DNA of 64,000 nt from Fischerella sp. JS2 (GTDB lineage: Bacteria > Cyanobacteriota > Cyanobacteriia > Cyanobacteriales > Nostocaceae), in NCBI RefSeq assembly GCF_032393985.1, contig NZ_CP135918.1:4340001-4404000 (forward strand), in the 5' to 3' direction. Position numbers and translations under genes: made by a program. The notes beneath the pieces were generated by a model. It saw only the letters and a program-made list of their open reading frames with translations. It was not told the DNA's origin and did not search any database. Shown piece by piece: positions 4,972 through 6,444 of the stretch; position 1 is the stretch's first letter; each line of letters starts with the position of its first letter.

Positions 4972-5852
4972 TTATTCTGAACAGTTTGTACCACTCTAAA
5001 ATGGTCGCATAAATTGAACAGCCAATTGCAATAGCCTTTGAAGGTTAGAGCGATCGCTCAACATATTTAATTCTTCTAGACTGAGAATCTAGCAGGGTTT
5101 TTATATGAACTCAACAAGTGAGCTTTATTTTCACCGCCATACTTGCTACTAATCTTTGATTTAAAAAAGCTTTATTTCTACGTTTTATGATGAGTTTATC
5201 TTATCAGAGATAGTTTTATTGTATCTATGTATAAATTGTGAACTTTAGTTGGGAAATATAAGCCTGTGCATAAGCTAAATGACTTATGCAACATGACATA
5301 GTTGTTTAACTTTTATCAGCTAAATTTCGGTGTTTCGCTATCCGGATTTATTGTCTGAGTTTGGTAGAGAATGAATACGTATAAATCGAGATGGTAAGAA
5401 CCACAAACATTAGGTTATTAGTTTATGAAAAATAGTATGAGTTGAATTATGTTAATTTTAAACACCGTATTGTTCACATTAAAATATAGTTTGATTTTTT
5501 CAATTTCTTTAATTGGAATTACTAAAATTATTAGATAAAAGCTACCCACATAAGTAGAAAATACAGAGAATTACCAACACTTCAGAGTCATTATCAAGCT
5601 GCTAACAACTCCTAAAAACATTATGAAAAGTGATTTTTATATAAATTAAACCAAATATAAAGCAACCAACATGATACAAAATCACTGTTTAAATAAACAC
5701 ATTAGTAAAAATATTACGTTGTGATGTATTTACTAAATTTTCATTGGCGACAAGTAGTCAAATTTAACATGAATGTCAAAAAATGTATTTGTTAATGCTG
5801 GATTAACTATTTTTGAAAAAATTGTAAATAAATTTAGATAAGAGAGATAACA
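4972..5852. promoter_or_regulatory. Long AT-rich upstream region of patS
   Basis: About 880 bp with no gene I can support. It holds an inverted repeat TGCATAAG-8 nt-CTTATGCA (5267-5290), and a TCCGGA hexamer (5341-5346) followed 18 nt later by TAGAGA (5365-5370). TCCGGA is the -35-like motif reported for heterocyst-development (DIF) promoters in Anabaena. Such a long leader fits a developmentally regulated patS. I did not find a canonical GTA-N8-TAC NtcA site. That these elements drive patS is inference. Confidence 0.45.
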
Positions 5853-5894
5853 ATGCTATTTGATCCTTCTAGTGAACGTGGTAGTGGTAGATAA
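5853..5894 (+). CDS. patS: PatS heterocyst-inhibition peptide (13 aa)
   Basis: The frame reads MLFDPSSERGSGR followed by TAA. It ends in the RGSGR pentapeptide, the active portion of Anabaena PatS, preceded by the same Glu as in the DERGSGR ending. Its 13 residues match the Met5-initiated form of Anabaena PatS. PatS is made in differentiating cells, is processed, moves to neighbouring cells and binds HetR, which lowers HetR DNA binding and so sets heterocyst spacing. A purine-rich AAGAGAGA stretch lies 5-12 nt upstream of the ATG. The gene converges on a hetY/tsaE homologue (5908-6384), with 13 nt between the stops. In Anabaena PCC 7120, hetY lies next to patS. The peptide is far too short for ordinary gene callers. 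I am very confident of its identity. Confidence 0.93.
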   Translation: MLFDPSSERGSGR

Positions 5895-5907: not shown

Positions 5908-6384
5908 TCAGCTACCAACAAATTCTTTAAAAACAGCTAAAATTTCTGGGTTAATGGTGAAATTACATGAAGTAATCTTAACGTAACGATATCCTTGATC
6001 TTCATGACTCAAATGCAGACTGAGATAACTATATGGCTGATAGGGCATTCTGTCCGCCCATTCAATCGCCACTATTCCTGGCATAACCTCAACACCTTCC
6101 CAGTAGGTTTCTAAAGTTAAAGCTGCTACTTCTTGCGGTTCTAGCCGATACAGGTCTAGATGATAGAGAGGAAGCCGCCCTGTTGTATATTCATTAATGA
6201 GAGTAAAAGTAGGACTGACAATAGGTTCCGTGATGCCCAAGCCTTCGCCAATACCTTGTACTAGAGTAGTTTTACCAGCACCTAAATCGCCTTCTAACAA
6301 AATCACAGTATTAGGACTTAGGTATTGGCCCAGAGTCATACCAAGCGATCGCGTTACCTCTGCATCAGCAAGAAAAATTTTCAT
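5908..6384 (-). CDS. tsaE: TsaE/YjeE-family ATPase, HetY homologue
   Basis: A 158-residue P-loop protein of normal TsaE length. Walker A is GDLGAGKTT (residues 32-40), followed by SPTFTLINEY, the YHLDLYRL segment and IVAIEWADRMP, all family hallmarks. TsaE works with TsaB and TsaD in making the t6A modification of ANN-decoding tRNAs. In Anabaena the family member next to patS is HetY, whose overexpression suppresses heterocyst formation. The convergent position next to patS supports calling it the hetY orthologue. Whether its developmental effect is separate from tRNA modification cannot be told from sequence. Confidence 0.9.
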   Translation of the reverse strand: MKIFLADAEVTRSLGMTLGQYLSPNTVILLEGDLGAGKTTLVQGIGEGLGITEPIVSPTFTLINEYTTGRLPLYHLDLYRLEPQEVAALTLETYWEGVEVMPGIVAIEWADRMPYQPYSYLSLHLSHEDQGYRYVKITSCNFTINPEILAVFKEFVGS

Positions 6385-6406: not shown

Positions 6407-6444
6407 GTTAGTAGTTAGTAGTTAGTAGTTAGTAGTTAGTAGTT
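6407..6444. repeat. Heptameric short tandem repeat (GTTAGTA)n
   Basis: Five perfect copies of GTTAGTA (6407-6441) plus a partial copy, between hetY and the YvcK-like gene. It belongs to the short tandemly repeated class known from filamentous cyanobacteria. A short related run lies near 34480-34498. Confidence 0.9.

Follow-up and report, generated by a model that had tools for sequence, protein, structure and literature searches.

Does a 13-codon frame in the genome of Fischerella sp. JS2 encode PatS, and is it the only gene of its kind there? Heterocyst spacing is a leading bacterial example of reaction-diffusion patterning, and its diffusible inhibitor has been reported missing in many species. 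The frame lies in the window, the whole 64,000-nt stretch of DNA analysed here, which spans positions 4,340,001-4,404,000 of a genome consisting of a single contig of 7,020,691 bp. For Fischerella-type strains the literature, cited throughout from the available portions of each paper, disagrees on PatS. Within its available text, PMC9284123 did not find PatS in UU774, PCC 9339 and NIES-3754, mentions 'ERGS' matches for no more than a few F. thermalis, reports that HetN of the same three strains does not contain RGSGR, and explains the irregular heterocyst spacing of Fischerella-type strains by the absence of PatS, whereas the corresponding part of PMC5812504 reports PatS and 'alternative PatS' in most Section V strains, so that some PatS in Section V would not be new. 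Inhibition of HetR and of heterocyst formation by added RGSGR peptide is known in M. laminosus (PMC5812504, same portion), and PMC12756182 (in part) states that conservation of patS and hetN does not extend to all heterocyst formers and infers that other inhibitors exist. The frame and its surroundings comprise the following elements, in window coordinates.

5341-5346, forward strand: DIF1 motif TCCGGA, with the start codon of patS 512 bp downstream
5363-5369, forward strand: -10-like GGTAGAG, at a TCC-to-GTAGA distance of 23 nt
5378-5852, forward strand: predicted 5' leader of the patS transcript, its start placed about 35 nt past DIF1 by analogy with PMC7377430 (available part)
5841-5847, forward strand: weak Shine-Dalgarno-like AGAGAGA, identified by eye and similar in close relatives
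5853-5894, forward strand: patS, 13 codons, MLFDPSSERGSGR, assigned from sequence, synteny and relatives
5877-5891, forward strand: RGSGR codons of patS, read from the sequence; RGSGR is the HetR-binding pentapeptide according to the available parts of PMC12756182 and PMC4649674
5908-6384, reverse strand: tsaE (hetY homologue), convergent with patS, the two stops lying 13 bp apart

The codons from 5853 to 5894 on the forward strand (ATG CTA TTT GAT CCT TCT AGT GAA CGT GGT AGT GGT AGA TAA) specify MLFDPSSERGSGR and a stop, bearing out the statement of the sequence-only reading that this 42-bp frame ends in RGSGR. The same reading was correct in that the frame faces a TsaE/HetY homologue, since the ORF beyond the 13-bp gap, at 5908-6384 on the reverse strand, matches PF02367 with an E-value of 5.2e-36. 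We take HetY to be the name of the tsaE neighbour of Anabaena patS, and in Anabaena PCC 7120 patS is presumably convergent with hetY, just as the window patS is with tsaE. Like the 17-residue PatS of Anabaena/Nostoc PCC 7120, which ends in ERGSGR, the window gene is tiny, has an ERGSGR end and carries TCCGGA several hundred bp upstream; it differs in having 13 codons and MLFDPSS in place of MLVNFCD. A short tandem repeat, TTAGTAG, occupies about 6412-6444, in the gap that separates tsaE from its neighbour.

Taken by itself, the motif is weak support, because the two strands of the 7.02-Mb genome contain 16 copies of a loose RG(S/T/C/W)GR-stop pattern and a reversed control contains 12. Recurrent synteny with tsaE provides strong evidence for a patS ortholog. 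TsaE was found in 143 of the 145 genomes of the family, and a convergent ORF ending in RGSGR-stop lies within 1600 nt 3' of tsaE, at a median of 199 nt, in 67 of these 143 loci; the 3' region was read at all 143, two being shortened by a contig end. The tsaE-linked set includes the Anabaena-type 17-residue PatS (L135) together with many N-terminal variants, and the N-termini vary widely between genera. RGSGR and the tsaE synteny thus recur in the comparison with patS loci of other heterocystous genomes that had been proposed from the sequence. Because sequence, place and promoter motif agree, the window ORF is on these grounds a patS ortholog, as first suggested, with the DIF1 motif as an added argument; what is new here is its place as a further member of the known patS.

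A short tsaE-linked patS, encoding MLFDPSSERGSGR or a one-residue variant of it, exists in six of the seven genomes that represent the genus and its sister genus, in the form M(L/Q/V)(F/Y)DPSSERGSGR, and the same six genomes retain almost unchanged codons as well as TCCGGA and GTAGAGAATGA. The difference between LFDPSS and the LVNFCD of Anabaena, on which the sequence-only reading had remarked, is real, but a special processing route is not implied by it, because LFDPSS is ordinary for this lineage and N-termini vary between genera. Absence of conservation in close relatives, which would have counted against patS, is refuted by the six genomes, with the qualification that one of the two congeners, described below, has a broken copy.

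TCCGGA is present within 1100 nt upstream in 42 of the 67 tsaE-linked patS loci and absent from that interval in 25, one of which offers only 335 nt, and these counts should be read against a rough estimate that the hexamer occurs by chance in about a quarter of 1100-nt stretches. The window patS qualifies as a DIF1 gene by motif and -10 spacing alone. In Anabaena, the patS start at -580 is preceded by DIF1 at a distance of 35 bp, and patS expression requires DIF1 and depends on HetZ (PMC7377430, in part); DIF+ promoters are described as having TCCGGA at -35, with one mismatch allowed, and an unusual extended -10 (PMC6133370, in part). HetR is present in the genome, its best PDB match being the solved HetR 3qod (E 5.4e-204). 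On the model that these elements suggest, nitrogen step-down would switch on the DIF1 promoter about 510 bp upstream of patS in differentiating cells, where the 13-residue PatS would be made and trimmed to (E)RGSGR; this product would move to neighbouring cells and block DNA binding by HetR, spacing the heterocysts. The window patS would in this manner inhibit HetR and suppress heterocysts.

A scan for further RGSGR-stop frames recovered MKFASDDRGSGR, which each of the three genomes of the genus carries at a site distant from tsaE, and the roughly 90 bp upstream of it are strongly conserved into other genera. A second locus of the JS2 genome, before MKLQGFGQYITNIDSDGRGSGR, carries the same leader as MKFASDDRGSGR, and a third member was also recognised (coordinates on contig G000:C1).

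1867132-1867170, forward strand: MKFASDDRGSGR with the conserved leader (L215, L026), kept in the genus and the sister genus
4166373-4166441, reverse strand: MKLQGFGQYITNIDSDGRGSGR with the same leader (L016), assigned by leader match
5935119-5935166, reverse strand: MKNNEGDRGSGRFDC with the same leader (L260), with similar loci in sister genera

At 1.87, 4.17 and 5.94 Mb, as against 4.35 Mb for tsaE, none of the three is convergent with tsaE. Another intact patS elsewhere in the genome, coupled with silence of the copy in the window, had been named as a potential objection to the window gene; three other RGSGR mini-genes do exist, and none of them is tsaE-linked. Their leaders consist of TCCTGTT, then TGTANA at the spacing of the patS DIF1 promoter, a Shine-Dalgarno site and the start codon, and the TCC-to-GTAGA distance is 23 nt in the window patS and in all three paralogs. 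Compared with Anabaena PatS, the second family is not linked to tsaE in its own genome, has TCCTGTT for TCCGGAT and a leader inferred to measure some tens of nt, against about 500, and its peptides often continue beyond RGSGR. Expressed from a variant DIF1 promoter (TCCTGTT, same spacing), MKFASDDRGSGR, MKLQGFGQYITNIDSDGRGSGR and MKNNEGDRGSGRFDC would be three further mini-genes yielding the same pentapeptide, which would add to the inhibition of HetR in the cells that make PatS and could take its place where the tsaE-linked patS has been lost; their peptides, like PatS of this genome, would be transcribed, processed and transferred and would inhibit HetR. The MKFASDDRGSGR mini-gene is convergent with a psbA gene, and that of MKLQGFGQYITNIDSDGRGSGR adjoins an apparent CRISPR array. 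An ORF upstream of MKFASDDRGSGR, MPDDVQLLLLVLLLFVEGINR, is not coding by inspection, being broken in the sister-genus loci and part of the leader. In L255-L260, L262 and L263, TTTTGGCATTTTGGCA downstream of the ORF is the reverse complement of the TGCCAAAATGCCA block, which sits at the 5' end of the other leaders.

Among the 143 genomes with tsaE, both types of gene occur in 18, a tsaE-linked patS by itself in 49 and the leader type by itself in 23, and 53 have neither; a frameshifted patS in F. thermalis PCC 7521 was counted as present. The leader-only genera include Chlorogloeopsis and relatives of Scytonema and Brasilonema. A DERGSGR frame exists at another place in some of the genomes that have no patS beside tsaE, and 'no tsaE-linked patS' is therefore not 'no patS'. 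In F. thermalis PCC 7521 itself (G002; L033/L038), a one-base insertion converts the tsaE-linked patS into MLFDPY-stop, and several hundred bases after TCCGGA are deleted, the -10-like element among them, a lesion read in one assembly and possibly an assembly error; because patS is broken in this strain, it can be dispensable in the genus. All three leader-type mini-genes of the strain are intact although its patS is broken, which, together with the 23 genomes that have the leader type without a tsaE-linked patS, is what one would expect if the window patS were an intact but silent relic and the leader-type mini-genes and PatX had taken over patterning in the genus. The retention of codons, TCCGGA and GTAGAGAATGA by the six remaining genomes of the two genera argues against such a takeover, which we regard as unlikely.

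In a tally of 85 leader-type loci, training loci included, RGSGR lies within 110 nt in every case; its codons are invariant at positions 1 and 2, all five third positions vary, and 27 synonymous spellings are found. A start codon follows a Shine-Dalgarno-like site in 83 of the 85 (40 GTG, 28 ATG, 15 TTG), and in 70 of these 83 peptides it stands 6 or 7 residues ahead of RGSGR. Immediately before the pentapeptide stands D (39 peptides), G (27), E (16) or N (one). RGSGR forms the C-terminus in 21 of the 83 and is followed by a tail in 62 (up to 12 residues in 45, longer in 17), because of which a C-terminal cut would also be needed. The 67 distinct peptides include 49 of 11-24 aa and 15 of more than 40 aa, some of the latter with hydrophobic stretches after RGSGR. 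In the Scytonema/Brasilonema-type members (L268, L271, L289, L309, L315, L380-L390), RGSGR is near the N-terminus of an ORF of 65-125 aa whose C-terminus is also similar between loci in most.

If the RGSGR codons are set aside, conservation is higher in the leader than in the ORF, and DIF+ promoters also drive a non-coding RNA, nsiR1 (PMC6133370, in part), two observations that would suit conserved leaders acting as small regulatory RNAs with incidental RGSGR frames. Variation of the RGSGR codons solely at third positions in 85/85 loci and the start codons behind Shine-Dalgarno-like sites in 83/85 speak against this, as does the absence of covarying base pairs in the leader, where none of 13 predicted pairs has both sides changed; we consider an RNA function very unlikely. 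The idea of the leader as a structured RNA was dropped, lacking covariation support.

Rather than TCCGGA, by which the leaders would not be classed as DIF1, all 85 contain TCCTGTT, and in the 66 where both boxes were found the gap between it and TGTANA measures 15 or 16 bases. We infer a variant DIF+ promoter, the wording being kept at that level because TCCTGT departs from TCCGGA at two positions. Taken by itself, the promoter string lacks specificity, with eight occurrences in the JS2 genome (three being the mini-genes) and four in the reversed control, only a twofold difference.

The complete leader is far more informative. R1, a sequence-only model of 10 leaders that begin with the first conserved block and run up to the start codon, without the RGSGR codons, produced 42 matches at E<5e-4 over 145 genomes, 10 of them training loci, and RGSGR follows in all 32 non-training matches, one of which shares its leader sequence exactly with a training locus. 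The third JS2 paralog, MKNNEGDRGSGRFDC, is a weaker match (E 9.1e-4). Nine matches between E 5e-4 and 0.005 were examined, G070:C74 being left out, and three have RGSGR (L260, L261, L262); L244, L245, L246, L264, L265 and L266, without it, were dropped. A broader leader-only model, R2, built from 31 leaders picked with RGSGR downstream, has matches at E<=0.001 in 82 of 217 family genomes and exactly three in the JS2 genome. RGSGR was found at 37 of 40 further R2 loci read; the three weakest matches, in G212, G025 and G138 (E 5.2e-4 to 8.1e-4), are without it, and these also fall in genera absent from training. At E<=1.8e-4, 27 matches in such genera were examined, 26 with RGSGR and one (G186) cut by a contig end. 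The largest untrained genus, g7, two genomes of which match Nostoc sphaeroides and Nostoc sp. ATCC 53789 through plasmids, has 42 R2 matches: reading showed RGSGR in 18, the truncated G186 match is one more, and 23 are unread. In an order-wide sample of 388 genomes, family included, five R2 matches outside the family are partial and without RGSGR (E 2.4e-4 to 4.6e-4), and in genus g39, which has an Anabaena-type PatS and includes Nostoc sp. UHCC 0870 and TCL26-01 (no genome of the set was recognised as PCC 7120), the two marginal R2 matches both lack RGSGR. A pattern scan of named genomes gave 64 matches, 32 of them cyanobacterial (Fischerella, Westiellopsis, Pelatocladus, Chlorogloeopsis, Scytonema, Brasilonema, Tolypothrix, Iningainema and others); the other 32, in non-cyanobacterial genomes, were taken as chance by organism. 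As for the RGSGR ORFs being chance frames altogether, the 16 loose motifs against 12 in the reversed control and an ERGSGR-stop frame at G000:C1:3309131 (L015) that is a CRISPR spacer by inspection indicate that such frames occur, but conservation, in the form of tsaE synteny in 67/143 loci and RGSGR behind 32/32 non-training R1 matches, already refutes this explanation and leaves it a negligible probability.

Taken jointly, the window ORF is very probably the patS of a Fischerella-type branching cyanobacterium, with the leader-type mini-genes most likely representing additional HetR inhibitors. It is also probable that the second family consists of widespread, often multi-copy RGSGR mini-genes of heterocystous cyanobacteria, unlinked to hetY and served by a variant DIF1 promoter, which would supply the HetR inhibitor in Scytonema, Brasilonema and Chlorogloeopsis lacking a tsaE-linked patS and bring the RGSGR peptides of this Fischerella, PatS and PatX included, to five. 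These genes are concrete candidates for the missing heterocyst inhibitors, and they suggest how easily a developmental gene of only 11-24 codons escapes notice. The family of equally tiny RGSGR genes is apparently undescribed so far: no description of it was recognised in the literature searched, which did not cover Elhai and Khudyakov 2018. It may have gone unseen because, in this sample, the genus group closest to Anabaena PCC 7120 yielded no member. According to its available text, PMC5812504 searched proteins for nearly all strains and would presumably have missed unannotated ORFs of 11-24 aa; its classic and alternative PatS number 38 together, most of 65-115 aa. The classic PatS of that study has ERGSGR, as does the window PatS, and the long Scytonema/Brasilonema members (VNMDDERGSGRFC..., 65-125 aa) may be among them.

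HetN carries RGSGR in Anabaena and is annotated as a ketoacyl reductase; a HetN-type short-chain dehydrogenase domain is absent from the leader-type ORFs, judging by their length (11 to about 125 aa) and by inspection. PatX, or 'alternative PatS', is characterised by a signal peptide, a proline-rich region and Y/HRGSGR or HRGTGR, and is exported (PMC12756182, in part). The second family resembles it in combining RGSGR with a putative promoter of the DIF1 class, but the 49 of 67 peptides that measure 11-24 aa have no hydrophobic leader by eye, and inspection found the leader-type mini-genes to be without a PatX-type signal peptide and proline-rich stretch before RGSGR. The pattern search for the HRGSGR form of PatX gave three matches, none with HRG(S/T)GR. 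The JS2 genome does contain a PatX-like ORF with YRGSGR and a hydrophobic N-terminus (L438, G000:C1:4995588 region), in which TCCGGA stands, by inspection, 63 bp upstream of the ATG. This ORF is located about 15 kb from hetR.
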